DNA of 64,000 bases from Chryseobacterium arthrosphaerae (GTDB lineage Bacteria; Bacteroidota; Bacteroidia; Flavobacteriales; Weeksellaceae). Shown piece by piece: positions 35,778 through 51,897 of this stretch. The notes beneath the pieces were generated by a model. It was not told the origin of the DNA. It searched no databases and was given only the letters and a program-made list of their open reading frames with translations. The stretch covers positions 1,240,001-1,304,000 of the forward strand of contig NZ_MAYG01000001.1 in NCBI RefSeq assembly GCF_001684965.1. The letters are read 5' to 3'. The stretch's first letter is position 1. Every line of letters starts with the position of its first letter. The translations under genes and the position numbers were made by a program.

Positions 35778-37124
35778 CTAAAAAGTCCTTACTTCATTCG
35801 CCTTCATCTTATAGTTTTTAAGTAAGAATAATGTCACTGTTCCTACTATAAGTTCTATCAGTGCACTTCCCCAATAAATACTTTTGATCCCAAAATAATG
35901 CGGAAGAATCAGCATCAGCGGAATGTACAGGATAACCTGACGAAGAAAAACCAGGAAGCTGGCCTTCTTACTCTGGTTTACTGCCGGATAATAGGAGAGT
36001 GCCAACACTGTAACCGGAAGTAATGGCAGTACAGAAAAGAACAGTCTGAAATCAATAATCTGATGATATTCTGCCGAATAACCGGGCAGCATCAGACCGA
36101 TTAACTGTTCCGGAAAAACCAATGCCACAAGAAAAAATGGTGAAAGTATACCGATACCAGCGAGAATATATGTCCTCAGAAATTTACCGGCCCTGCTAAA
36201 CCGGCCCGCACCGAAATTGATTCCCACCACAGGCTGTAAGCCCCGCATCAAACCAAATAATGGAGTAAGCAGAAACAGGAAAAACCTGTTCAGAACCGTA
36301 AAAAAAGAAATATCTTTTTCCGTTCCGTACGCTGCAATTGCATTGAATATGATAATACTCTGTATGACCCCCATCACAGAAAGAACCATTTCAGGAAGTC
36401 CCAGTTTTAATATTCTTTTTCCAATAGCAGCATCATAGGAAAAAGATTTCCACTGGGTTGAAAACGAACTTTTTCCCTGGGCATAATAATAAAATCCCAG
36501 CAAAGAATAGATCAGCATTCCGCAGTTGGTAGCCCATGCCGCTCCGGAAACACCCCATCCGAATACGGAAATAAAAACAGGCTTCAGGATAATATCGATA
36601 ATAAGTCCTACTGTGATCATTACTGCTGCCGTTTTCATCTTCCCCTCAGCTCTCACCAGCATATTCAAAGCCAGGCCGTAGATCCAGAAAACCGTCCCGA
36701 TGAGTGTTACCCTGAAGTATTCCACTGCAATGGTCTGAAGGTCTCCTTTTGCTCCCATCATAGCCATTAGTTCATGGGCAAATATATAAGCAGGGACGGC
36801 GCAAAGCAATGAAAAGAAGATACAGAGAACATTGAAACTTCCAAACAGTCTGTACAGCTTATCCTGATTATTTTCCCCGATCCAGATGCTTACAGCAGCT
36901 CCGGCACCGGTTCCGGCCAGCCTTCCGAATCCCAGCACAATCTGCGACAGGGGATAGGCCATACCAACAGCAGCCAAAGCCTGCGTATTGATAAGGTAGC
37001 CTACAAAAACAGCATCCAGGAAATTGTTGATTCCATACAGAACAATAGCAGCAACGGCAGGCCATGAAGTTTCCCACATGACCTTTTTCATATCACCTTC
37101 TAGGATGAATGTTTTGCGGTCCAT
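35778..37124 (-). CDS. MATE-family efflux transporter
   Basis: A 448-residue multidrug and toxic compound extrusion protein with about 12 helices and internal pseudo-symmetry (FGRLAGTGAGAAVSIWIG in the first half, VVGINFGAGRFSRA in the second). It overlaps the monooxygenase gene by 25 bases and is the last gene of the siderophore operon, so it most likely exports the finished siderophore across the inner membrane. MATE exporters are not rare in this role, but direct proof is absent. Confidence 0.88.
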   Translation of the reverse strand: MDRKTFILEGDMKKVMWETSWPAVAAIVLYGINNFLDAVFVGYLINTQALAAVGMAYPLSQIVLGFGRLAGTGAGAAVSIWIGENNQDKLYRLFGSFNVLCIFFSLLCAVPAYIFAHELMAMMGAKGDLQTIAVEYFRVTLIGTVFWIYGLALNMLVRAEGKMKTAAVMITVGLIIDIILKPVFISVFGWGVSGAAWATNCGMLIYSLLGFYYYAQGKSSFSTQWKSFSYDAAIGKRILKLGLPEMVLSVMGVIQSIIIFNAIAAYGTEKDISFFTVLNRFFLFLLTPLFGLMRGLQPVVGINFGAGRFSRAGKFLRTYILAGIGILSPFFLVALVFPEQLIGLMLPGYSAEYHQIIDFRLFFSVLPLLPVTVLALSYYPAVNQSKKASFLVFLRQVILYIPLMLILPHYFGIKSIYWGSALIELIVGTVTLFLLKNYKMKANEVRTF

Positions 37125-38413
37125 GTTTTTTGGGTATTAAACTCCTGAAAAGCAATCCTTTTTTCTACTTTATACACCTCCCTTCCTGCAACTGCATTGA
37201 TGATCAGGGCGTTTCTGTAAGCTCCCATTCCCAGATCCGGTGTTACAAAGCCATGCGTATGAAGCTCCGCATTCTGTACAAAAATATTTTCTGCCTGGTC
37301 TATGGTATAATAACGGCTTACCTCGAATAATCCATCCTCAGTTCGCCGGATCAGGTTCTCAATTCCTGAAAGGAATTGAGGTTCTTTATATTTGTAACCA
37401 GTAGCCAGAATAACATAATCTGAAATGTGGGTGAAAGTTGCATGATCCTGTACATGGGTAAAATTCAGGGCATATGAGTTTCCTTCAGGAGCAATACCAT
37501 CCAACTGGCAGCTTGGCCTTAAAGCAACATTCAAAGGAGTATTACCGACACTCATCCCATAGAGCGTATCAAAAATATCATTGATCAGGTCAAAATTGAT
37601 CCCCTTATAAAGTGGTGGTTGCTTGGCCAGAAGAGCTTTCCGTTGTGAAGACGGCATATGGTAAAAATGATCTACATATTCCGGAGAAGTCAGCTCAAGC
37701 GTTAGTTTGGAATATTCCATTGGGAAAAAACGGTCCGGTCTTGTAAACCAACTCATGAAAATACCGTCTTCAGTTTCCGGAAGAAGATCCTGGAATATTT
37801 CCGCCGCACTCTGCCCGGAACCGATAATGGAAACAGAACCGGCATTCAGAATATCTTCCTTATGATTCAGGTATTCGGAAGTGTGAATAACATTCGGGAA
37901 ATTCTTACCTTCCATAAAAGAAGGGAGATTGGGTTGGGTACCTGTTCCTAATACAATCTTCCTGGCGGTATATTTTGTTACATCATTATTTTTAAGGTCC
38001 AGGACATTGATGATGAATATCTTTTCCGTTTCGTCAAATTCAATACTCTCTACTTTTTTTCCAAACAGACAGCTCTGAAGCTGATCCGCCGTCCACTGGC
38101 AATACAGGTTGTATTCTTTTCTTAAAATAAAAAAATCTTCCCTGATGTAAAATTTATACAGTCGGTCAGTCTCTTTTAAAAAATTGAGAAAGCTGTATTT
38201 ACTTTTCGGATCAGCCATGGTTACCAGATCAGCCATAAAAGGTACCTGCAATGTAGCATTATCCAGCATCAGCCCCGGATGCCAGTCAAAACCTTCCGCC
38301 TGATCAAGAAACAGGGCTGAAATATTTTCTACCGGCTCAAGAAGCGCTGCTAAGCCCAGATTAAAAGGACCAATCCCGATCCCGATAATATCATATATTT
38401 TATTATTTTCCAA
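37100..38413 (-). CDS. Diamine/lysine/ornithine N-monooxygenase (siderophore)
   Basis: A 437-residue flavin-dependent N-hydroxylase of the IucD/PvdA/SidA family. FAD motif GIGIGPFNLG (11-20), NADPH motif GSGQSA (198-203), and the C-terminal DYVILATGYKYKEP signature. It hydroxylates the terminal amine of a diamine or amino acid to give the N-hydroxy intermediate of a hydroxamate siderophore. With the decarboxylase at 41168-42685 the natural substrate would be cadaverine or putrescine, as in desferrioxamine or bisucaberin routes; that substrate is inferred. Confidence 0.9.
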   Translation of the reverse strand: MENNKIYDIIGIGIGPFNLGLAALLEPVENISALFLDQAEGFDWHPGLMLDNATLQVPFMADLVTMADPKSKYSFLNFLKETDRLYKFYIREDFFILRKEYNLYCQWTADQLQSCLFGKKVESIEFDETEKIFIINVLDLKNNDVTKYTARKIVLGTGTQPNLPSFMEGKNFPNVIHTSEYLNHKEDILNAGSVSIIGSGQSAAEIFQDLLPETEDGIFMSWFTRPDRFFPMEYSKLTLELTSPEYVDHFYHMPSSQRKALLAKQPPLYKGINFDLINDIFDTLYGMSVGNTPLNVALRPSCQLDGIAPEGNSYALNFTHVQDHATFTHISDYVILATGYKYKEPQFLSGIENLIRRTEDGLFEVSRYYTIDQAENIFVQNAELHTHGFVTPDLGMGAYRNALIINAVAGREVYKVEKRIAFQEFNTQKTWTAKHSS

Positions 38414-38766
38414 TGTATTTTATTTTTTATAAGTTAATGTTAAAAAAGGTTTAAATCAGTTCAGGCAGAACGTAGTCAAAGCTTTGTATTATTTTTTCAA
38501 ATGAGAATTGGATATTTTTTAACGCAAAGTTTTGTTCAATTCGACCGGTTATTTGAAGTGGGCAAAGAAGACGATTTCGTCGGTGATGAAGTTTTGAGAT
38601 TGGCTTCTGCTTTTTCTTTGCTTGCTTTTCAGGTTGAAAAATTTCTTTGAGTTTGAAAACATATTTCATATTCACTTTTAACTCTCGCAGATCAGGCAGA
38701 TTTCGCAGATTTTAATTATTTTTAGGGAAAATCTTGATGATTTGCGATAATGGAGGCTATTTCCGC
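38414..38766. other. Intergenic spacer with short tandem repeats
   Basis: 353 bases inside the siderophore operon, between the synthetase and monooxygenase genes. No convincing gene: a 74-codon minus-strand frame at 38451-38675 has low-complexity basic composition. Three 9-base repeats at 38686-38712 are the only clear structure. Confidence 0.5.
38686..38712. repeat. Three tandem 9-mers (CGCAGATTT type)
   Basis: CGCAGATCA, GGCAGATTT and CGCAGATTT in direct succession, 27 bases. Probably a dispersed intergenic repeat of this genome; a GCAGATT also occurs in the terminator at 26662-26709. Confidence 0.6.
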
Positions 38767-41190
38767 TTAAGCATTATTCGCCTCAAGTCTGCTTTCAGGG
38801 CATTTCTCCCAGTAATTTTCTCGGGTACAGAAAGTAAGATATGCTGTCTTATGAGGCATGGTGATTACCCCTTCTCTTGTATACCCCAATCTGGTAATCA
38901 GTCTGTCGGTAGGAACTGCTTCTACGGAAGCTTCTCCAATACATTTACCGACTTCGGGAAGTGAAAAAATATAATCTAAAGCAACCTGGAAGGATTCGAA
39001 CGAATACTTTTTATCTTTACGGGTCTCTGCAACAAAGAAATGTGTTCCGTAATCTGAAGGAAGCGAGTCATAATAAGCGCCCACAATATCTCTCATCGGC
39101 CAGTAAGGTTCAAAACTGAACTGCGGAACTCCATTTACTTCTCCGATAAAACTATGCTGCTCATCACCGGGAAGAATTGTTCTGAACCAAAGTTCAAGAT
39201 CCCTTTTCGGGCCATCCATTTTCCAGTACGGCTTGGCATGTTCCATGTTGAACCATTCGTGAACCATTTCAAAATCGCGGTCTATATCAAAAGGCCTGAT
39301 GCTGATGGTTATATTTTTATCCTCAAAATGACGGGAATATACTGTTCCAGTTGTACCTGGTTTGATCAGTTGCCGGCTGTAGAAATATTTATTAAGAGGG
39401 TTCGGTGTGTCCAGAAAAACCGCAGGATATTCAAGCGATTCATCTGCTTCGTTGATGTTCTGAAGACTGGTGATCAGGTTTCCTTTTGTATACCAGTTCC
39501 TTTTATTCGTAATATAGCTTACCAGGCCGGTTTCATCTTCGTTTTCAAGTTCTTTAAATGCTTTATATACAAGATCAATCAGTTTCTTTTCATCTGCTAA
39601 TCTGTTGCAGCCCAAAGCATTCACAACTCCCAGGATATTATTGGTAACCAGATAATAGGTGTATTTTGGAGCTAATGATTCTTCATCAATAATCGACTGA
39701 CTTTCATCTGCTATCCCCGGAAGAGCAGCAGAAACCAGATCTTTTCTTCCTTCTCTGAAGAAAAATCCCTGATTATCCCTGAAATAAATCTTTGCAGGAA
39801 AGCCGTTTCTGTCAAGCTCTATCATTACATTCTGCTGATGGAATTCACACGCTAGCCCGTAGGTATTCAGAATTCTGACAATAGGCCTCACACAAAGATG
39901 CAGGTATTGCTTAAACCATTCTACAGCAATTTTTTCTACAGACTGGCCAAGTTTTTCAGCTGTGGTGGTAATGATATTCTGAAGTCTTGAAGGTTTTCCA
40001 AGAATACCGTCCTGGCATAAAGCAGCCAAAAGCGTTACGTTCTTATTTTTCTGTTCTCCCTGGAATGGATTTCTTCTGATACTGATATTGAACCCGTTAA
40101 TGACTTTTCCGTTGAAAGTAACGGCCATAAAGGCAGGATCTACCATAAAATCTATTTCCGGGAAATCTTTCTGAAGACTTTTTCCCCAATCTGTTTTCAG
40201 AAGCATGCTGATGTCATAGCCGCGGTGAAGCTCCGGATACAGGTTGATTCTTTCGGAATTGGTGATTTTTACATGCAGGGAAAATTTAAACATCCATTTG
40301 TTTTCTTCATTGTATACCGTTCTTACCGATGAAGTAGGAGTGAAGTAGTCTCCATAATGTCCCAAAGCAAAAAGGATTCCCTGTTCCTCCATGATCTGTA
40401 CATTTTCCTGGCCTAGGAGATAATCTGCTTCCCATGGATGCATGGGTAAAATATGGTATTCCGGATGCTGGTCCCAAAGCCTTTTGTGTTCCGGATTAAG
40501 GGTCGGATAGATCTTTTCCGCCAATTCTTTGCTTATAGGCTCCCCGTCTGCATTTTTTTCGATCATATTCTCAGGATTGACAAGGAAATAGAACAGCTGG
40601 AATCTTCCAGAGGTTTCCGGTGAGTATTTCAAAAGATCCTCACCAACAAATCCCTGCTTCGATTTGGGAACCGGATGAAGGATATGGCCTAAGATAAGAG
40701 ACTGTTCCGCCTCAATAAAAGACATTTCCAGATCATTAATCTTTTTTTTACTGTGGAGGGAATGATACAGGTATTCAGTAAGGTTATCAATACTGTTGCT
40801 TAATCTTTCTAAAACATTCACAGCATCAATTCCGGGATGAATTTCTTTGGCATATTCTGCGGTAAGGGTCATAAATCCATAAACATCCAGTTCAGAAACT
40901 TCATCAGTCTCCAAAGTTCTCATCAGAACAGGAAAATCAAAAAGATGTCTTCCGCTTTCTGAAAAATAAACAACAGGAATGTACAGATCACATCCTATTG
41001 TGGAAAAATCGATGCGGATATGAAGATTCGTAGGGGTTTCTTTCAGGTAGGTTGCAATGCCTTTGTCATATTTTGGAATTCCAAGATAACGGCTCCAGTT
41101 GGTAAATTCTTTCAGGTAGCAGTTGATAAGTGAGGTATAGTTGATCTTTTCTGCGTATTCAGAGATATTAGTTGACTTCAATGTATTCAT
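38767..41190 (-). CDS. NIS siderophore synthetase fused to acyltransferase
   Basis: About 807 residues from ATG 41190. The N-terminal ~600 residues form an IucA/IucC-type NRPS-independent siderophore synthetase: HPVPKSKQGF (172-181), HPW (251-253), SLHVKITN (304-311), EFHQQN (449-454) and RDNQG (471-475). The C-terminal part (about 627-795) is an IucB/RhbD-like GNAT acyltransferase (HEWFNMEHAKPYWKMDGP). One protein can therefore acylate the hydroxylated diamine and couple the products using ATP. The order synthetase-acyltransferase is opposite to that reported for BibC. An in-frame ATG at 41235 would deepen the overlap with the decarboxylase gene. Confidence 0.9.
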   Translation of the reverse strand: MNTLKSTNISEYAEKINYTSLINCYLKEFTNWSRYLGIPKYDKGIATYLKETPTNLHIRIDFSTIGCDLYIPVVYFSESGRHLFDFPVLMRTLETDEVSELDVYGFMTLTAEYAKEIHPGIDAVNVLERLSNSIDNLTEYLYHSLHSKKKINDLEMSFIEAEQSLILGHILHPVPKSKQGFVGEDLLKYSPETSGRFQLFYFLVNPENMIEKNADGEPISKELAEKIYPTLNPEHKRLWDQHPEYHILPMHPWEADYLLGQENVQIMEEQGILFALGHYGDYFTPTSSVRTVYNEENKWMFKFSLHVKITNSERINLYPELHRGYDISMLLKTDWGKSLQKDFPEIDFMVDPAFMAVTFNGKVINGFNISIRRNPFQGEQKNKNVTLLAALCQDGILGKPSRLQNIITTTAEKLGQSVEKIAVEWFKQYLHLCVRPIVRILNTYGLACEFHQQNVMIELDRNGFPAKIYFRDNQGFFFREGRKDLVSAALPGIADESQSIIDEESLAPKYTYYLVTNNILGVVNALGCNRLADEKKLIDLVYKAFKELENEDETGLVSYITNKRNWYTKGNLITSLQNINEADESLEYPAVFLDTPNPLNKYFYSRQLIKPGTTGTVYSRHFEDKNITISIRPFDIDRDFEMVHEWFNMEHAKPYWKMDGPKRDLELWFRTILPGDEQHSFIGEVNGVPQFSFEPYWPMRDIVGAYYDSLPSDYGTHFFVAETRKDKKYSFESFQVALDYIFSLPEVGKCIGEASVEAVPTDRLITRLGYTREGVITMPHKTAYLTFCTRENYWEKCPESRLEANNA

Positions 41191-42685
41191 TTCCGTATTT
41201 TTTAATAATGTTAAGTACTGATTTAATGTCTTCAATGGTGGTAAGAGGATTAAGAATGGTAAACTTCAGATAGAACTGTCCGTTTACTTTAGTTCCCGCT
41301 GTAAGGGCATTTCCTTGTCTGTAAAGTTGTGATTTGATGTAAGTATTGATCCTGTTCAGGTCAAATGTTTTAAAAGGATCTGCCGTGTAACGGAAGACCA
41401 GTGCTGAAATATCCGAAGTGTTCAATAATTCAAAATAAGAATCATTTTCCAGCACATCAACGGCTTCACGGGCTGTCATGATAATCCTGTCGATATAATT
41501 TCCCAGTCCTTTTTTACCAATGATCCTAAGGGTAAACCAAAGCTTTAAAGCATCAAAACGCCGGGTCGTCTGTATTGATTTATTTACCTGGTTCGGAATT
41601 TCATCTTCATCATGATCTTTGGGATTCAGGTAATCCGCATAATGGGTGATCAGTCTGAAATAGTTTTTGTCCTTTACCAGGAATCCGCTGCTGCTTACCG
41701 GCTGAAAGAATGCTTTGTGATAGTCTACCGTTACAGAATCTGCTTCTTCAATTCCATTGAGTAAGTGGCGGTATTTTTCTGTTAAAAGCAAAGCACAGCC
41801 ATATGCTGCATCTACATGGACCCAAAGATTGTATTTTTTTGCTATTCCTGAAATATTGATCAGCGGATCAACGTTTCCGAAATCTGTAGTTCCTGCCGTA
41901 GCAACCACTGCAATAGGAATATTCCCGATCTCAATTTCTTTCCTTACGGCATCTTCCAGCAGTACACTGTTCATTCTGAAAGACCTGTCTGTTTTGACCT
42001 TAATAACGGCCTGCTCGCCAAGTCCCAGCATGGAAGCACTTTTCTGAATGCTGAAATGAGCTGCTTCGGAAACAAAAATCCTGAAACGGTGTGCTTCTTT
42101 GGGAAGACCGTCTTTTTTTATGTTATGATGTAAATATTTAGCAGAAAAATGGTCTCTTGCCAAAAGCATTCCCATAAGATTACTCTGGGAACCCCCGCTG
42201 GTAAAGATTCCGTCTGAGAATGTATCAAATCCGATTTCATTGCAGGTCCATTCGATCAGTTTCTGCTCCATCAGAGTTCCTCCTGCACTCTGATCCCAGG
42301 TATCCAGGGAAGAATTGATAGCGCTGATCACTGCTTCCGCCGCCACTGCAGGTATTACTACCGGACAATTGAGATGGGCTACATATTTAGGATGGTGAAA
42401 AGCAATAGCGTGCTGTGTATACAGCCCGTTTACTTCATCGAAAAGCTCTTCATAGCTTACAGGAGGTGAATTCAGATCGATATACTCAAACTGTTTTCTC
42501 AGCTCTTTGGGAGAAACCCCGCTGAAAGGCTGGTGAGTGTCTTCCAGAAATGCAATGACACTCTGCTGTGCTTTGTGCATGGCATCCCGGTATTCGTGAA
42601 TGTTGATATCACAGAATAAATTTTCCAGATTTGGGAAAAGAGTCTCCTTTTCCGTTGCGGCATGCCCGGTAATAACTGTGTTCAT
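41168..42685 (-). CDS. PLP-dependent group II decarboxylase (siderophore diamine)
   Basis: A 505-residue fold-type I decarboxylase. PLP-binding lysine K324 in DYHK, HVDAAYG (290-296) for the cofactor nitrogen, H210 stacking, and GTTDFG. The group includes lysine decarboxylase DesA, L-2,4-diaminobutyrate decarboxylase and glutamate/tyrosine decarboxylases. In a hydroxamate siderophore operon it most plausibly makes cadaverine or putrescine. It overlaps the synthetase by 23 bases. The exact amino-acid substrate cannot be told from sequence. Confidence 0.88.
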   Translation of the reverse strand: MNTVITGHAATEKETLFPNLENLFCDINIHEYRDAMHKAQQSVIAFLEDTHQPFSGVSPKELRKQFEYIDLNSPPVSYEELFDEVNGLYTQHAIAFHHPKYVAHLNCPVVIPAVAAEAVISAINSSLDTWDQSAGGTLMEQKLIEWTCNEIGFDTFSDGIFTSGGSQSNLMGMLLARDHFSAKYLHHNIKKDGLPKEAHRFRIFVSEAAHFSIQKSASMLGLGEQAVIKVKTDRSFRMNSVLLEDAVRKEIEIGNIPIAVVATAGTTDFGNVDPLINISGIAKKYNLWVHVDAAYGCALLLTEKYRHLLNGIEEADSVTVDYHKAFFQPVSSSGFLVKDKNYFRLITHYADYLNPKDHDEDEIPNQVNKSIQTTRRFDALKLWFTLRIIGKKGLGNYIDRIIMTAREAVDVLENDSYFELLNTSDISALVFRYTADPFKTFDLNRINTYIKSQLYRQGNALTAGTKVNGQFYLKFTILNPLTTIEDIKSVLNIIKKYGNEYIEVN

Positions 42686-42844
42686 AGATATGGTGTGTTT
42701 GTGTTCTTTTACTCTTTAATAGTCGGGTTAGAGTTGAAGATTAATGATACATTTCAAACCGTCCTGTCAAAATTTAAGGAGATGTATTTATCAGTTCTTT
42801 GTGACCTTATGGCTTAAAATGTATCTGTGGTTAGCTGTTAGAAT

Positions 42845-45079
42845 TTAATAATTAATCGTGTAGCCTACAGAAAACGTTGTTCCCCGGCCCTGATAGGCAA
42901 ATGCTTTCTGGGGTGCTCCATAGAAAAATACGGAACGCTGTCCCCAGATTGTAGTGTACTGCCTATTGAAAATATTCTGAACTCCGAAATTAATGGTCCC
43001 TTTATTCAGTCTGATGTCTCCCATAAAATCGAACAGGGTATAACCTGTGATTTTCATGTCTGCAAGATCAGTATAATTCATAGAGTTCTGCATCTGCAGT
43101 CTCAGTGAAAATCTTTTGGCATTCCACCCTGTGGAAACCATAAACTTAGACGGGTTGGTGGTATAGACAGACTGGTTTTGCCAGCCTTTATCTTTGGTTT
43201 CAGTTTCAGATTGCATCAGGAGTACGTTTCCTCCCAATTCAAGGCCTTGTGTGAAACGATACCCTAAGGCCCCTTCAAAACCGTAATTTCTAAGTTTTTG
43301 ATCAAGCAAAGAAATCGTGAAAGCAGCATTGTCAATTTTCAGGGTTTTGCTGGATAATGCATAGAAAATAGATCCCTGTGCGTACAACCCTGCCTCCGGA
43401 CCTCTGTTGTGCCTGAATCCTAATTCAATCTGATCGGTTTTGATTCCGCTTAAGGGCTGTTCTGAAATATTCATGCTATTCTGAAGATTCCAGCGGTTGT
43501 TGCTGAGCTGATATTTTCCAAAACCGTAGGATTTTGCAGCGTCAGGAACGGCAAATCCCTGTGAAAAACTGAACCAGGTCTGCCAGGCCGGTGTGAATCT
43601 GTATAATAAGCTCGCATTAAGCAATGTTACATCATAATTATTTTTACCGCCTTTCACAACATCTGCTGAGTTTCCATAGCCGAAATGCATATAGACCTGC
43701 TCTTTAAAACCGACAAAATCATCCAGTTTTACATTGATGAACTGTTGTCTCACCCCTCCTGAAAGGGTCAGTTTCTTTGTAATATTCCAGTCTGCCTGAA
43801 TAAAACCTGCCAGAGTAAAGATCTTTGTATCCGGATATCTGCCTACAAAAGCATCTGCCTTATTGATCAATCCTCCGGATTCACTGCTTATTTTAGGGTT
43901 AAAAATAGCCTGGTCACCTTTAAAGTTTTCAAAGTCAAGGTCTGTACCGTAAGTAAAACTGAAAGCATTCCAATTTTTGGAAAGAACGGTCTTTGCTCCG
44001 TATACATCTGTATTTCCTCTTGCTGAAGAAAGAAACACAGGAAGGGTAACACCTGCCGGAGGTTTAGGCACTTCTGCAAAAGAAGCCCCAAAATCTGCCT
44101 CCTCACGTCTTCCATAAGCCTGAACGAGTAGATTGTGCCCTCCTAAAATATTGCGGAGACTGTACTGAATATTAGCCATAAAACGTTCAGTACGGGGAAC
44201 TACATCAGAATCTGCACCTCCAAGTACATTGATCAGGTCAGGGTTTTTGGTGGTAAATCCTGTAAATCCCGGACCGAAAGAAAGCCATTTTTTATTCCTG
44301 ACCTTAGAGCTGTAGTACTGAAGATCTACATTCAAATCCTGATCGGGACTCAGTTTGAAGCTTACTCCACCCAGAAGGTCTATTGATCTGTTATACTGAA
44401 AATCAGCCTGTTTTACATCAGTAATAATCTGATCTCCATGGGCATCAAAAGCGCCTTCATTTTGAGTTAACGCAGCCCCTAACCTGAATTTTATCTTATC
44501 ATTCCCGCCTTCAACAGACTGTGCAATTCTTTTATCAAGGTCATCCTTATGGAAGCCTGTTTTTAATCCTGCAGAAGTTTCAAAAGCAAGCTTATCCGAA
44601 GTTGGCCTTTTAGTGATGATATTGATGATTCCCCCCGTGGAATCTCCTCCATAAATAGCAGAAGCACCGGATAAAACTTCAATTCTTTCAATATTGAAAG
44701 GATCAATAGCATCAAATTGTCTGCTGGCTGCTCTGGTACTGTTCAGAGAAACTCCGTTGAGCATCACCAGTACATTTCTTCCCCTCATATTCTGGGCATA
44801 GTTGGTTCGCCCCTGATTTCCGAAATCAAACCCGGGAATCATATTTCCCAATACCTCTTTCAACCCGGCACCGCCTTTTATTTGAGTCTGGAGTTCCTTT
44901 TCCCCAATGATCCAGACTGTTCCCGGAATATCGCTGATTTGCTTCGGGGAACGTGAAGATACGAGTACAATCTCGTTGATATCTTTTGCAGTAATACTAC
45001 TGTCCTGCCTGCTCTGGGCAGAAGTATGTGCAGTAAAGGCAGTCAGTAGGATGACTGAAAGTACATATTGTCGTTTCAT
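42845..45079 (-). CDS. TonB-dependent ferric siderophore receptor
   Basis: A 744-residue outer-membrane receptor. Signal peptide about 1-21 (ending TSAQ), plug domain about 45-165 (IPGTVWIIGEKEL, NMRGRNVLVMLNGVSLN, GASAIYGGDSTGGIINIITKRP), then a 22-strand barrel ending in an aromatic Y. It imports the ferric siderophore with TonB energy. No carboxypeptidase-like or SusC N-terminal extension is present. It opens the siderophore biosynthesis operon, 159 bases before the decarboxylase, so uptake and synthesis are co-regulated, presumably by iron. Confidence 0.92.
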   Translation of the reverse strand: MKRQYVLSVILLTAFTAHTSAQSRQDSSITAKDINEIVLVSSRSPKQISDIPGTVWIIGEKELQTQIKGGAGLKEVLGNMIPGFDFGNQGRTNYAQNMRGRNVLVMLNGVSLNSTRAASRQFDAIDPFNIERIEVLSGASAIYGGDSTGGIINIITKRPTSDKLAFETSAGLKTGFHKDDLDKRIAQSVEGGNDKIKFRLGAALTQNEGAFDAHGDQIITDVKQADFQYNRSIDLLGGVSFKLSPDQDLNVDLQYYSSKVRNKKWLSFGPGFTGFTTKNPDLINVLGGADSDVVPRTERFMANIQYSLRNILGGHNLLVQAYGRREEADFGASFAEVPKPPAGVTLPVFLSSARGNTDVYGAKTVLSKNWNAFSFTYGTDLDFENFKGDQAIFNPKISSESGGLINKADAFVGRYPDTKIFTLAGFIQADWNITKKLTLSGGVRQQFINVKLDDFVGFKEQVYMHFGYGNSADVVKGGKNNYDVTLLNASLLYRFTPAWQTWFSFSQGFAVPDAAKSYGFGKYQLSNNRWNLQNSMNISEQPLSGIKTDQIELGFRHNRGPEAGLYAQGSIFYALSSKTLKIDNAAFTISLLDQKLRNYGFEGALGYRFTQGLELGGNVLLMQSETETKDKGWQNQSVYTTNPSKFMVSTGWNAKRFSLRLQMQNSMNYTDLADMKITGYTLFDFMGDIRLNKGTINFGVQNIFNRQYTTIWGQRSVFFYGAPQKAFAYQGRGTTFSVGYTINY

Positions 45080-45382: not shown

Positions 45383-46870
45383 TCAGCTGATCAATTTTGC
45401 ATTTTTTGAAAAAACTTCAACACTTTTTTGCATTTCATCAGCATTCAGATCGCCAAATCCTAATCTCATGGCCGTAAGTCCTTTATTCTGGTACAGAAGT
45501 GTTTTCGGAATAAAGAGATTATCCCGGGCACAATTCCGGCTGAGCTGCATCAGATTAACCGGAACTTTCCATTCTAACCAGATTGCCAGACCACCTGAAG
45601 GTTTCCGGAAGGTAACAAGGTCATCCAGACTGTCCTGAAGCAATGTACAGAGATAATCCCGTCTTTCCTGATAGACCTTTAGAGATTTCTTCAGATAGCG
45701 GTTGATTTCTCCTTCCGCAATCATTTCTCCAAGCGCTCTTTCCATCAGAATATCACCCTGCCTGTCGATGATCCCAAGGTATTTTCTCATTTCAGACATC
45801 AGATTTTCCGGAGCCACAATAAATCCGGTTCTGAATCCGGGTGCCAATGACTTACCAAAAGAACCGATATAGATAACCATGCCGCTCGTATCTGCACTGG
45901 CTAGCGGAAGAATCGGGCTTTTATCATAATGGAATTCATAATCGTAGTCATCTTCAAGAATGATAAAACCGTATTCCTGAGCGAGTTCCAGAAGCTCAAA
46001 CCTTCTCTGGGCGCTTAAGGCCACAGTAGTAGGATAGTGGTGGTGCGGGGTAAGGTAAAGCATTCTGATCTTCTGCTTTTTGCAGGCCTCCCGCACACTT
46101 TCTACAATAATGCCGTCTTCGTCTATAGGAATAGAAACCATCTGAACTCCGGCTTTCATGAAGATCATATTGACAGAGAAATAGCTTAAAGCACCTACCA
46201 ATACTACATCTCCGGCAGAAAGAAGAATCTCGGAAACAATATAGATGCTCATTTCTGTACTTCGTGTGATCAGCAGATTGTTTTTAGAAATAGGAAGCCC
46301 GCGGGACAGGTTCAGATAACGGGACAAATGCTCTTTAAAGAACTCGCTTCCGTCATGATTATAATGGCCGGATATTTTCTGGTTAGACTTCCGCTTAAGA
46401 ATAGAACTGTAAAATCTGGAATGCTGTCCGATCTGTGTAAGCCTGATATCAGGAACACCGTCATTAAAAACATAATCACAATTGGAATGTTCAAACGGAT
46501 TATCCAGGATATTGGATGTTTTAAAAGAAAATCCGGTAGTTTTAGGATAATTCTGAAGGCTTTTCTGCTCAAAATTATTAATTTCCACGGGTTTTTCCTG
46601 TTCTTTACCGATAATGAAAGTACCTCTGTTCGGAAGAGACTCTGTCCAGCCCTGTGCAGACAATTCATCATATACGGCCACAGCAGTATTCCTGTGAATG
46701 TCCAGCATTTCACTGAAAGTTCTTGTTCCCGGCAGCTTGGTCCCAAACGGAAGAAATCCTCTTTGAATGGCATTGATCAGCTGGTTGGCGATCTGTAAAT
46801 AGATCGGAGTTTCTGTTTTTCTGTCAATTTTTATAAAACTTTCATAGGGAATTCTAACCGGACTATCCAT
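45383..46870 (-). CDS. MocR-family (GntR HTH-aminotransferase) regulator
   Basis: A 495-residue regulator with an N-terminal GntR winged helix (about 12-80, QIANQLINAIQRGFLPFGTKLPGTRTFSEMLDIHRN) and a C-terminal fold-type I aminotransferase domain (about 120-490). The PLP lysine is kept in YIGSFGKSLAPGFR. Members such as PdxR and GabR use PLP or related adducts as effectors. The gene is divergent from the biotin operon across 66 bases. Control of the biotin genes is plausible because several biotin enzymes use PLP, but vitamin B6 or siderophore genes are alternatives. Confidence 0.9.
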   Translation of the reverse strand: MDSPVRIPYESFIKIDRKTETPIYLQIANQLINAIQRGFLPFGTKLPGTRTFSEMLDIHRNTAVAVYDELSAQGWTESLPNRGTFIIGKEQEKPVEINNFEQKSLQNYPKTTGFSFKTSNILDNPFEHSNCDYVFNDGVPDIRLTQIGQHSRFYSSILKRKSNQKISGHYNHDGSEFFKEHLSRYLNLSRGLPISKNNLLITRSTEMSIYIVSEILLSAGDVVLVGALSYFSVNMIFMKAGVQMVSIPIDEDGIIVESVREACKKQKIRMLYLTPHHHYPTTVALSAQRRFELLELAQEYGFIILEDDYDYEFHYDKSPILPLASADTSGMVIYIGSFGKSLAPGFRTGFIVAPENLMSEMRKYLGIIDRQGDILMERALGEMIAEGEINRYLKKSLKVYQERRDYLCTLLQDSLDDLVTFRKPSGGLAIWLEWKVPVNLMQLSRNCARDNLFIPKTLLYQNKGLTAMRLGFGDLNADEMQKSVEVFSKNAKLIS

Positions 46871-46881
46871 AATATCAAAAC

Positions 46882-46918
46882 TGGCACCATTGAACCATCC
46901 GGCAATATACTACTTTTG
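46882..46918 (+). promoter_or_regulatory. Biotin operon promoter with MocR-like direct repeats
   Basis: TTG (46890-46892), N18, then TACTTTTG (46911-46918) form a full promoter. Direct repeats ACCAT (46887-46891 and 46895-46899) and GGCA (46883-46886, 46901-46904) overlap the -33 element, the layout often bound by MocR dimers. Confidence 0.55.
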
Positions 46919-46936: not shown

Positions 46937-47560
46937 ATGGAGTTTCATCATCTGTTAAATAAAATTGTACAGGAAGAAAATACTCACGCCAAATGGCTGA
47001 ATACACTTTCTTTTATGGAAAATGCCGGGGCAAGAAAAATATCAAAATGCGAACACCCTGTTCTGGTTACTCAGATTCAACTGAAACATGCTGCAGAAGA
47101 GCATCGCCATGCTTATTACCTGAAAAAACAAATCGGAAAAATAAATCCGGAGCTTTGCAGAACCTATGAAAACGAAGAACTGCTTGCAGCAACGGCAACA
47201 CGCCAGTACCTTCATTCCCTTGATATCAAAGCCTGCCGTTACCTTCAGAAGGTGTTTAAACTTAATAAAGAAGACCTGAAATACGCAGCCTATCTTTTTG
47301 TAACCTATGCCATTGAAGTCCGTGCAGATGAATTATATCCCGTATATCAGGATATCCTGACCCAGGAATCTTCAAAAATTATGGTAAAATCTATCATTCT
47401 TGAAGAAGAAGGCCACCTGGAAGAAATGATCAATCAGCTCAACGGTTTTTCTGCTGACTGGAAAGCCCATGCAGAAAACATTCTTACCATTGAAAAAGAA
47501 TTGCATGAACAATGGATCAATGCTATTGCAGAAGAAGTAGCGCAATTGAATTATGCATAA
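46937..47560 (+). CDS. Ferritin-like diiron protein of the biotin operon
   Basis: A 207-residue helical protein with a ferritin-like carboxylate-histidine pattern: E14 (with H17), E55-x2-H58, E127 and E157-x2-H160, placed on four predicted helices. This is the ligand set of a non-heme diiron oxygenase or oxidase. It starts the biotin operon and overlaps bioF by eight bases, so it is translated together with it. No bioC, bioH, bioI or bioW gene lies nearby, which suggests that it helps make the pimeloyl precursor by oxidative chemistry. Alternatives are a MiaE-like hydroxylase or an iron-handling protein. The function is not established by sequence. Confidence 0.7.
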   Translation: MEFHHLLNKIVQEENTHAKWLNTLSFMENAGARKISKCEHPVLVTQIQLKHAAEEHRHAYYLKKQIGKINPELCRTYENEELLAATATRQYLHSLDIKACRYLQKVFKLNKEDLKYAAYLFVTYAIEVRADELYPVYQDILTQESSKIMVKSIILEEEGHLEEMINQLNGFSADWKAHAENILTIEKELHEQWINAIAEEVAQLNYA

Positions 47561-48662
47561 CGGGACCTTATACTGTCAGCAATCTCTCAATAAAAGAAAG
47601 GAGGAAGGAAGATTGCGGCGCTTACAACCCAAATCTGAAGGAATTGACTTTTATTCTAATGATTACCTGGGACTGGCCCGAAATGCAGAGCTGCAAAAGA
47701 TATTGCTGAAAAATGTCAATGACCACCCTGAGCTTCTTTCGGGAAGCACCGGTTCAAGGCTCATCAGTGGAAACAGCTCAGTCGCTTTGAAGACAGAAGA
47801 ATTTATTGCTGAAAAACATCAGTTTCCGGCTGCATTGCTTTTCCCATCAGGTTATAATGCCAATCTTGCATTGTTTTCATCGATCCTCAGCAGGCATGAT
47901 ACCATTATTGTAGACGAACAGATCCACCGTTCGGTGCATGATGCATGTAAAATGTCAAATGCAAAAAAGCTGAAATTCAGACATAATGACCTGGAAGCTC
48001 TGGAAAAAGTGCTGCAGAGACAAAACGGCCCCTGCTATATTGCGATAGAAAGCCTTTACTCTATGGAAGGGGATTTTGCACCCATTTTGGAAATCGTTGA
48101 AATGGCCCGCCAATATGGAGCTGGAGTCATCGTGGATGAAGCACATTCTTTTGGCGTTTTGGGATACGGACTGATTGAAAAGTATCAGTTACAGGATAAG
48201 GTTTTTGCGGCAGTGGTGACCTATGGAAAAGCTTTAGGCGCACACGGAGCTGCCATACTCTGCAGTAAAACGGTAAAAGAATATCTGGTCAATTTTGCTT
48301 CACCATTTATTTATACTACTTCTGTACAGGATTTCCAATGGATGAGTATAAAAAAGGGATATGAATTTCTGGAAACCCATCAGGATCTGAATATAAGACT
48401 TCAGGAAAATATAAAGACTTTCATAAATCAGGGATTAAGTTCGCCCTCGTCTGATGGCAGCCCTGTTCAGGCTATTATAATTCCTGATAATTTAAAACTG
48501 AAAACGCTGCAGAATACTTTAACTGATGAAGGGTTTCTCACCTACGCCGTATACAGCCCAACCGTAAAAGCAGGCAGTGAAAGGCTCAGAATATGTCTTC
48601 ACAGCTTCAACACGGAAGAGGAAATTATGAAACTGACAGGAATTATCAAAGAATTTATTTAA
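47553..48662 (+). CDS. bioF: 8-amino-7-oxononanoate synthase
   Basis: A 369-residue PLP enzyme of the alpha-oxoamine synthase family that condenses pimeloyl-ACP or -CoA with L-alanine in biotin synthesis. H126 (IHRS), DEAHSFG (195-201) and the PLP lysine K226 in VTYGKALGAHG are present. At 369 residues it is slightly shorter than E. coli BioF (384). The start overlaps the ferritin-like gene by eight bases. Close relatives such as KBL share the fold, but the biotin gene context decides the assignment. Confidence 0.92.
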   Translation: MHNGTLYCQQSLNKRKEEGRLRRLQPKSEGIDFYSNDYLGLARNAELQKILLKNVNDHPELLSGSTGSRLISGNSSVALKTEEFIAEKHQFPAALLFPSGYNANLALFSSILSRHDTIIVDEQIHRSVHDACKMSNAKKLKFRHNDLEALEKVLQRQNGPCYIAIESLYSMEGDFAPILEIVEMARQYGAGVIVDEAHSFGVLGYGLIEKYQLQDKVFAAVVTYGKALGAHGAAILCSKTVKEYLVNFASPFIYTTSVQDFQWMSIKKGYEFLETHQDLNIRLQENIKTFINQGLSSPSSDGSPVQAIIIPDNLKLKTLQNTLTDEGFLTYAVYSPTVKAGSERLRICLHSFNTEEEIMKLTGIIKEFI

Positions 48663-48712: not shown

Positions 48713-49324
48713 ATGAAATTATTTATCACAGGAATAGGAACCGAAGTTGGAAAGACTATATGCTCTGCTGTTCTGGTTCAATATTTTAAAGCAGAATACT
48801 GGAAGCCTGTACAATCCGGAGACCTGCATGATACAGACCGTCATAAAATTGAAGCATGGACTGATCATCCGGTCTGTTATCCGGAAACCTACCGACTGCA
48901 GTTAGCTGCTTCTCCCCATCAGTCTGCACGGGCAGAAAACCTCCATATCGATCTTGACCGTTTTCAATTACCGGATACAGATCAACCTCTGATCGTAGAA
49001 GGAGCAGGAGGATTGATGGTTCCTCTTTCCGACAACAGGTTTATCATCGATCTGATAGAAGTATTGAATCTTCCGGCAGCACTTGTGATCAGAAACTACC
49101 TGGGATGCATCAATCACAGTCTGTTGTCAATCATGGCACTGCAGCAGAGAAATATAAAACTCGATTATTTGATTCTGAATGGAGAATTTCCCGAAGATAC
49201 GGAAAGGGTCATCTGCAGCTTCATTGAAAAAGGAACAGAAATAATCAGGATTCCGGAGATTGAAACTCCTGACAGAGAACATATAAGAGCTGCCGCAAAG
49301 CAGCTGACAATAACAAAATTATGA
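48713..49324 (+). CDS. bioD: Dethiobiotin synthetase
   Basis: A 203-residue P-loop ATPase that closes the ureido ring of dethiobiotin from DAPA, CO2 and ATP. The Walker A loop GIGTEVGKT covers residues 7-15, and the [10 protein letters not shown] stretch supplies the substrate site. Its TGA overlaps the bioB ATG as ATGA, so bioD and bioB are translationally coupled. It follows bioF by 50 bases. Confidence 0.92.
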
Positions 49325-50310
49325 TAATGGATAAGAAAACAACAATCAGAAACAACTGGACCAAAGAAGAAATTGAGGAAATCTATCATTTACCCCTGAT
49401 GGAACTCATCTATAAAGCAGCCACCGTACACAGGGAATGGCATGATCCTTCAGAAGTACAGATCTCCACATTGTTATCAATAAAAACAGGGGGCTGTCCG
49501 GAAGACTGTTCCTATTGCGGACAGGCTGCCCGCTATCATACCAACATCAAAGTACAGGCCTTATTACCTACTGAAACGGTGATTGCCCATGCCCAAAAAG
49601 CAAAAGATTCCGGGTCATCGAGATTCTGTATGGCTGCGGCATGGCGTGAAGTGCGTAATAACCGTGATTTCGACAGGGTAATTGATATGGTAAAAGGAGT
49701 GAATGAGCTGGGACTGGAAGTATGCTGCACTTTGGGAATGCTGACGGAAGAACAGGCGATCAGACTTCAGGAAGCCGGACTGTATGCCTACAACCACAAT
49801 CTGGATACTTCTGAGCAGTATTATGAGGAGATTATTTCCACAAGAACCTTTGATAACAGGATCAATACGATCAATAATGTCCGGAAAGCAGGGATCACAG
49901 TATGTTCCGGAGGAATCATAGGCCTGGGAGAAACCCACAGGGACAGGATTTCAATGCTGCTGACTCTGGCTACGATGCCTAAACATCCGGAATCTGTACC
50001 TATCAATGCGCTGGCTAGGGTAGAAGGAACTCCGTTAGCGGATAATGAAAAGGTAGATACCTGGGAAATGGTAAGGATGATTGCTACGGCAAGAATCGTC
50101 ATGCCGTCTTCGATGGTAAGACTCAGTGCCGGACGTATAGAAATGGATGAAACAGAACAGGCATGGTGCTTTATGGCAGGTGCCAATTCAATTTTTACCG
50201 GAGAAAGGGAAACCTTACTGGTTACTCCCAATCCCGGAGTGTCTGAAGATATGCAGATGCTGCAGACCCTTGGGCTAAAACCGATGATGAAAAAAGAAAC
50301 ATGCTGTTAG
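49321..50310 (+). CDS. bioB: Biotin synthase
   Basis: A 329-residue radical SAM enzyme that inserts sulfur into dethiobiotin. The cluster motif CPEDCSYC gives C59, C63 and C66 for the [4Fe-4S] centre. The [2Fe-2S] region and R ligand are in the expected later segments ([22 protein letters not shown]). Two starts (49321, 49327) are possible; the first forms the ATGA overlap with bioD. The terminal CC is a small extension. Confidence 0.95.
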
Positions 50311-50607
50311 AAACCGCCATAGTAAGATATAGATAAGCATTATGGGAAGTTGGATCATCAGTATATTAATATGCATCGTATTAGTATTGTCTGAGCTTTT
50401 GAATCTTTTATTCTTAACGCTATAGCTCATAGAAAAATATTGATTAAATGTAAAAATATTCGTTCGCAAAGGCATTCCATTCAGCAAGGTATAATGCTTT
50501 TTATTGCTGAGTGAAACGCCCTTGTGAACTTAAGACAACAGCACACAAAGTAAAACTTAGCGAGCATTGCGCTATTTAAAAATTCATCACTCATTATCCT
50601 ATTTTAC
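50311..50607. other. Spacer between bioB and bioA
   Basis: 297 bases. TCAGCAA (50481-50487) and TTGCTGA (50504-50510) form a modest hairpin that may attenuate read-through. No exact -7 box for bioA was found, so bioA may depend on read-through from bioB or on a weak promoter. A minus-strand frame here overlapping the bioB end looks like noise. Confidence 0.4.
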
Positions 50608-51897
50608 ATGAATACAATAATAAACAAAATCAGCCTGCAGAAAAGAGACAAAGCGGTCAACTGGCATCCTTATACTCAGATGAAGACGGCCAATAATACC
50701 ATTCCCATTGTAAAAGGAAAGGGAATTTATCTCTACGATGAAGAAGGAAAAAAATATATGGATGTAGTTTCTTCATGGTGGGTTACACTGCACGGCCATG
50801 CCCATCCGTATATTGCCCAGCGTGTTTTTGAGCAATTGAATACACTGGAACAGGTTATCTTTGCAGGTTTCACTCATGAACCCGCTGTAGAGCTTTCAGA
50901 AAGGCTTTTAAAGCTGTTGCCGTCCGATCAGGAAAAAGTATTCTATTCTGATAATGGTTCTACAGCAGTGGAAGTCGCATTGAAGATGTGCATTCAGTAT
51001 GCTCATAACCAAGGGAAAAAGAAAACAAAAATCCTCGCTTTTAAAAATGCTTATCACGGAGATACTTTCGGAGCCATGTCTGTGAGCGGGAAAAGCTATT
51101 GGACCCAGCCTTTTGAAAGCATGCTGTTTGAAGTGATCTTTATAGACACTCCCAATCCGGAAAACCTGAAGCAGTTACAGACTCAGATTACGGCACTGGC
51201 TGATGAAGTGGCTTGCTTTATCTATGAGCCTTTAGTTCAGGGGGCAGCTGGAATGCTGATGTACAGGGCAGAGGACCTTAACAGTCTGATGAAAATATGC
51301 AGGAAACAGGGGATCCTTATGATTCAGGATGAAGTTTTTACAGGTTTTGGAAGAACAGGGAAGTTTTTTGCAGCCAATCATCTTACTGAACAGCCGGATA
51401 TTATGTGCTTTTCAAAAGGATTAACCGGCGGAACCATGCCCATGGGAATTACCACATGCTCCAACGGTATTTATAGTGCATTCCTTTCTGATGATCATCA
51501 TAAAACCCTTTTTCACGGACATTCTTTTACAGCAAATCCGTTAGCCTGTGCTGCTGCTTTAGCCAGTATGGAATTATTACTACAAAAAGACACTCAAATG
51601 AATATCAACCGTATCACTCAACAGAATTCAGTGTTTGTAAAAACGCTTTCCGGTCATCCTCAGGTGGAAAATGCCCGCCATATCGGAACTATTTTAGCTT
51701 TTGATTTTAAAACAGTGCAGGGAACTTCTTATTTTAATGAAATAGGAAAAAAGCTCTACAATGAATTTTTACAGAGAGGAATTATCATGCGTCCCCTTGG
51801 AAACGTTCTGTATCTGGTACCTCCTTACTGCATTTCGGCTGAGGAGCTGGACTTTGTGTATCAGAATATTATGGAAGTCCTGGATCAGTTTAAATAA
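50608..51897 (+). CDS. bioA: Adenosylmethionine-8-amino-7-oxononanoate aminotransferase
   Basis: A 429-residue class III PLP aminotransferase that converts 8-amino-7-oxononanoate to DAPA using S-adenosylmethionine. DEVFTGFGRTG at 241-251, PLP lysine K270 in MCFSKGLTGG, and the N-terminal NWHPYTQMK typical of BioA. It is the last biotin gene, 297 bases after bioB, followed by a strong terminator hairpin. With bioF, bioD and bioB it completes the late pathway from pimeloyl thioester to biotin. Confidence 0.95.
   Translation: MNTIINKISLQKRDKAVNWHPYTQMKTANNTIPIVKGKGIYLYDEEGKKYMDVVSSWWVTLHGHAHPYIAQRVFEQLNTLEQVIFAGFTHEPAVELSERLLKLLPSDQEKVFYSDNGSTAVEVALKMCIQYAHNQGKKKTKILAFKNAYHGDTFGAMSVSGKSYWTQPFESMLFEVIFIDTPNPENLKQLQTQITALADEVACFIYEPLVQGAAGMLMYRAEDLNSLMKICRKQGILMIQDEVFTGFGRTGKFFAANHLTEQPDIMCFSKGLTGGTMPMGITTCSNGIYSAFLSDDHHKTLFHGHSFTANPLACAAALASMELLLQKDTQMNINRITQQNSVFVKTLSGHPQVENARHIGTILAFDFKTVQGTSYFNEIGKKLYNEFLQRGIIMRPLGNVLYLVPPYCISAEELDFVYQNIMEVLDQFK

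Follow-up and report, generated by a model that had tools for sequence, protein, structure and literature searches.

BioE, a ferritin-like diiron oxygenase, provides a fourth way to the pimeloyl half of biotin, according to a paper published on 12 December 2025 in Adv Sci (PMC12915131), which credits the same team with identifying the enzyme in Elizabethkingia and Chryseobacterium (PNAS 2025, doi 10.1073/pnas.2501226122). As described there, BioE cuts long-chain fatty acids, bound to acyl carrier protein (ACP) or coenzyme A (CoA), between C7 and C8, producing a pimeloyl thioester. The substrates are C14-C18 acyl-ACPs, and the enzyme of Elizabethkingia meningoseptica (EmBioE) accepts acyl-CoA as well. 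The reaction needs O2 and was assayed with phenazine methosulfate (PMS) and NADH. Both EmBioE and its Chlamydia psittaci counterpart (CpBioE) rescue E. coli strains mutated in bioH or in bioC. E. meningoseptica lacking bioE is a biotin auxotroph. A MocR regulator, BioL, represses bioE and senses 8-amino-7-oxononanoate; deletion of bioL leads to biotin auxotrophy in E. meningoseptica and C. indologenes. BioE is also put forward as a potential target for drugs against multidrug-resistant Elizabethkingia. The subject here is a gene of Chryseobacterium arthrosphaerae that very probably encodes such a BioE. It lies in a stretch of 64,000 nucleotides (contig NZ_MAYG01000001.1, positions 1,240,001 to 1,304,000; henceforth the window) within a genome of 5.05 Mb.

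Two other enzymes resemble BioE in part (PMC12915131). BioI of Bacillus subtilis also cleaves a long acyl-ACP to a pimeloyl thioester, but unlike BioE it is a heme enzyme (a P450), a family with no match in the window genome. The cyanobacterial aldehyde deformylating oxygenase (cADO) is, like BioE, a ferritin-like diiron oxygenase that acts on fatty chains; unlike BioE, it releases formate from aldehydes. The likeness to cADO is one that the paper itself draws.

The gene in question is:

46937..47560, plus strand: bioE, predicted ferritin-like diiron oxygenase (open reading frame of 207 amino acids, residue fingerprint, ligand conservation)

There is little room for doubt that its product is a BioE, making pimeloyl thioester from a long-chain acyl thioester. 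In favor of this are the residue match, the conservation of the ligands, the order of the genes, and a genome in which BioW and P450 are absent and neither BioC nor BioH exceeds its cut-off. The match was judged by setting the numbered residues that PMC12915131 mentions against the window protein at a constant offset. At an offset of +2, 16 of 17 EmBioE residues agree (as against 3 of 17 at most for any other of 15 offsets), and at -13, 17 of 23 CpBioE residues do (as against 4 of 23 at most for any other of 12 offsets). All six iron ligands agree with both enzymes at those offsets. Beyond the ligands, 10 of 11 channel and CoA-patch residues of EmBioE are kept, the exception being K46, which is Q48 in the window protein. 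The protein thus shares the six ligands and 17 named residues with the C. psittaci enzyme, but differs in that its locus has a bioL gene and its CoA patch has, with that one exception, the residues of EmBioE.

The K46 exception might be taken as a sign that the protein is a BioE relative with an altered substrate or cutting position, feeding BioF some other product, and the published BioEs do vary in oligomer and substrate (PMC12915131). However, at each of the other 16 EmBioE positions named, the window protein has the same residue, and the same paper names Chryseobacterium as a carrier of the pathway, so that a change of this kind is barely credible.

By the published site, the diiron ligands are predicted to be E28, E55, H58, E127, E157, and H160, the counterparts of E26, E53, H56, E125, E155, and H158 of EmBioE. 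An earlier note on this DNA, made from the sequence alone, had named five of the six correctly and had given E14 in place of E28. E14 was discarded as a ligand: glutamate occupies position 14 in just 1 of 80 relatives. In contrast, the six ligands of the published site are kept in all 80 relatives and also in all 24 rows of a wider alignment (the window protein and 23 relatives, 56-96% identical). Furthermore, the E26A variant of EmBioE, equivalent to a change at E28 in the window, is catalytically inactive (PMC12915131).

The other genes for biotin synthesis follow on the same strand:

47553..48662, plus strand: bioF, 8-amino-7-oxononanoate synthase (best family TIGR00858, below its cut-off)
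48713..49324, plus strand: bioD, dethiobiotin synthase (TIGR00347, over cut-off)
49321..50310, plus strand: bioB, biotin synthase (TIGR00433, over cut-off)
50608..51897, plus strand: bioA, diaminopelargonate transaminase (TIGR00508, over cut-off)

The coordinates bear out the earlier reading of a 207-residue gene just ahead of bioF and overlapping it by 8 bases. From this position, bioE heads bioF-bioD-bioB, with a 4-base overlap between bioD and bioB, and bioA lies 297 bases past bioB. The identification of all four bio genes also held, three of them over NCBIfam cut-offs. TIGR00858 is the best model for bioF, though its score of 285.4 bits is below the cut-off of 426.45 (the second-best model is PRK05937). 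Perhaps the low score reflects a branch of the family that uses pimeloyl-CoA, the only form that the E. meningoseptica BioF uses in vivo (PMC12915131).

The arrangement was compared across 109 loci, comprising the best 80 of 338 confirmed related stretches (the more distant of the 338 fall outside these 80) and 29 loci with short flanks; some may come from the same species. The closest named relative at the locus, Chryseobacterium sp. E1, has a protein 96% identical to that of the window, and the remaining 79 loci, nearly all from Chryseobacterium, have proteins 73-88% identical. All 109 loci carry bioL, bioE, and bioF together. The order L-E-F-D-B-A is found in 78 of the 80 loci with long flanks, the other two (L029 and L076) having short stretches after bioE. 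In more distant genomes, bioE adjoins bioA or bioF. Four stretches from another family of the same class (L138, L139, L140, and L142) have it next to bioA, and in a fifth, L141, it adjoins a bioF on the opposite strand. There was no match to bioL in these five stretches of 3.6 kb (L138-L142) or in two of 11 kb (L127 and L128). A search of plasmid records gave no match.

A strong hairpin is predicted in the interval between bioB and bioA (50311-50607), with about -29.6 kcal/mol over 105 bases. The length of this interval varies widely among relatives, and there is no second copy of it within the window.

The earlier note had found no bioC, bioH, bioG, bioI, or bioW within the window, and searches of the whole genome extend this for BioC, BioH, BioW, and P450. 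No protein exceeded the curated cut-off for BioC (15 weaker matches, the best at 75.4 against 184.95 bits) or for BioH (19 weaker matches, the best at 69.9 against 206.95 bits), which leaves no BioC-BioH pair over cut-off elsewhere in the genome. Such a pair, if needed for biotin, was what the earlier note had said would refute its proposal. BioW and P450 (the BioI route) were set aside as sources of the pimeloyl chain, as neither had a match in the genome while control genomes were matched. For BioG, the genome gave no match, but no control genome did either, so the search is uninformative.

The weaker matches bear on another explanation, that the protein has a different job (as an iron store, a rubrerythrin-like peroxidase, or similar) and that a divergent BioC-BioH pair elsewhere makes the pimeloyl chain. 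Many methyltransferases and alpha/beta hydrolases of the genome do weakly match BioC and BioH, and among 24 relatives of the bioE protein, six weakly match Rubrerythrin and two bacterioferritin. The absence of any BioC or BioH over cut-off argues the other way, as do the adjacency of bioE to bio genes across genera and a BioE fingerprint that includes channel residues beyond the metal site. A different job is therefore very unlikely.

Surveys beyond this genome fit the assignment to BioE. Within the order, bioE was found in 41 of 395 genomes, including 39 of the 42 Chryseobacterium genomes listed (that of the window counted among them). Across the phylum Bacteroidota, it was found in 14 of 395 genomes. 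A BioC survey with the same draw settings, scoring at most 6 candidates per genome, found a strong BioC (E up to 1e-30) in 122 of 395 genomes, 80 of them with a match over cut-off. The earlier note had suggested asking whether genomes with this gene next to bioF lack bioC and bioH. In the survey, none of the 14 carriers is among the 122 genomes listed with a strong BioC, and the genome of the window has neither BioC nor BioH over cut-off. If the two genes were distributed independently, this result would have a probability of 0.005, but since seven of the 14 carriers belong to one genus and five to another, its real weight is less than that figure.

Several points weigh against the identification as BioE. 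The survey itself contributes one: in the majority of the 395 genomes bioE and a strong BioC were both missing, and the carriers of bioE come from few lineages. Across Bacteroidota as a whole, then, bioE does not explain where the pimeloyl chain comes from. As for competing routes, the informative searches covered BioC, BioH, BioW, and P450, and a BioG or a KAS III-type BioZ may be present. The comparison with published BioEs rests on residues named in the text of the paper, not on an alignment of full sequences, and within it the CoA-patch K46 is replaced by Q48 and 6 of 23 CpBioE residues differ. The remaining points concern the fold. The earlier note had proposed a structure prediction and a search against diiron families as checks. 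An AlphaFold2 model (29 input rows, the window protein and close relatives) is all helical, but its mean pLDDT of 57 makes it too poor for use, so that it does not confirm the fold or the metal site. Searched by fold against the PDB, the model gave no match at E up to 0.001; TenA and HlyD, listed first, had E of about 1. The family libraries gave the weak ferritin-like matches to Rubrerythrin and bacterioferritin already mentioned. Apart from these, one of the 24 relatives showed a weak EncB-type match, a search of PDB sequences with the window protein gave no match, and a PDB search with the profile of the wider alignment gave a single row at E 0.96. The tRNA hydroxylase MiaE, considered on length alone, was dropped, the protein having no such match in Pfam or NCBIfam.

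If the protein is BioE, biotin synthesis would proceed as follows. The helical, ferritin-like enzyme would take a long acyl chain joined as a thioester to ACP or CoA, activate O2 at a pair of irons bound by E28, E55, H58, E127, E157, and H160, and cut the chain between C7 and C8. BioF would condense the resulting pimeloyl thioester with alanine, BioA, BioD, and BioB would finish biotin, and BioL, as a MocR-type repressor, would act on the gap that bioL and bioE share. For homologues, the cleavage, the ligands, the need for O2, the rescue of E. coli, and repression by BioL have been shown (PMC12915131). From these, we infer the activity of the window protein itself; a literature search found no published test of this exact protein.

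The central proposal of the earlier note, that the pimeloyl chain comes from carbon-chain cleavage by a diiron oxygenase, thus coincides with the published function of BioE, whose fingerprint the window protein carries, and the published route is, as the note supposed, distinct from those of BioC-BioH, BioI, and BioW. What falls is the implied novelty. Enzyme, route, and regulator have all been published, and Chryseobacterium is named in that account (PMC12915131). The result from the window therefore matters mainly as annotation. No model in Pfam or NCBIfam names the bioE protein, and genomes that carry it consequently seem to be without the first step of biotin synthesis.

Missing from the earlier account altogether was the regulatory gene on the other side of bioE, given here with the features that lie between the two:

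45383..46870, minus strand: bioL, MocR-type regulator of 495 amino acids (Pfam GntR and Aminotran_1_2; R50, K340)
46878..46907, no strand assigned: probable operator for BioL, between bioL and bioE (block conserved across an alignment of 79 gaps)
46911..46918, plus strand: TACTTTTG, possible -7 box for bioE, read from the sequence

The two genes are divergent and 66 bases apart. R50 and K340, published for the BioL of E. meningoseptica, are R50 and K340 in the window regulator as well. Position 50 is R in all 80 aligned relatives, and at position 340 there is K in 79, the remaining one having R, a count that requires the alignment (an ungapped reading gives K in 57 of 80). The nearest NCBIfam model is PdxR, at 309.4 against a cut-off of 320. 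By analogy with the published regulator, the bioL product probably represses the bio cluster. In Chryseobacterium sp. E1 (L001), the bioL frame ends at 382 residues, as against 495 in the window.

Taken as a whole, the locus resembles the BioE-BioL system described for E. meningoseptica and Chryseobacterium in its six ligands, its 16 of 17 residues, its divergent MocR gene encoding R50 and K340, and the succession of bioE, bioF, and bioD. It differs from that of E. meningoseptica in the organization of its control. There, bioEFD and bioBA form two controlled units, and BioL was tested on two probes, each about 50 bases long and described as palindromic, one belonging to bioE and one to bioB (PMC12915131). 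In the window, bioB overlaps bioD by 4 bases and bioA begins 297 bases later, and the genome gave one operator-like block.

That block was recognized from the gap between bioL and bioE, which measures 62-67 bases in 74 of 80 loci and exceeds that length in the other six. An alignment of 79 gaps (that of the window and of 78 loci, two gaps over 200 bases being left out) shows conservation around ACTGGCACC and TCCGGCAATATACTA, where the operator is placed from sequence. Allowing up to 3 mismatches, a 30-base form of the block occurs once in the window. Across the genome, a 25-base form likewise has a single occurrence, and its reversed control has none. The lack of a second operator-like copy in the genome suggests a single point of control, although there may be a weaker or different site before bioA. 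It is conceivable, if somewhat doubtful, that in Chryseobacterium one BioL operator in this gap governs bioL together with the entire bioE-F-D-B(-A) cluster. In that case, the chain cutter and the late enzymes that consume ATP and S-adenosylmethionine would rise and fall together. Between the block and bioE, TACTTTTG is possibly a promoter element of the form TAnnTTTG, which we take to be the -7 box of Bacteroidota.

Beyond bioL, at lower coordinates, lies a further group of genes:

35778-45079, minus strand: siderophore-type gene set (MatE exporter, lysine/ornithine monooxygenase, IucA/IucC plus acetyltransferase, PLP (pyridoxal phosphate) decarboxylase, TonB-dependent receptor)

A standing link between these genes and bioE was considered and rejected. 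Relatives of the receptor and the decarboxylase lie near bioE in just 7 of 80 loci, and so this part of the neighborhood is not fixed.
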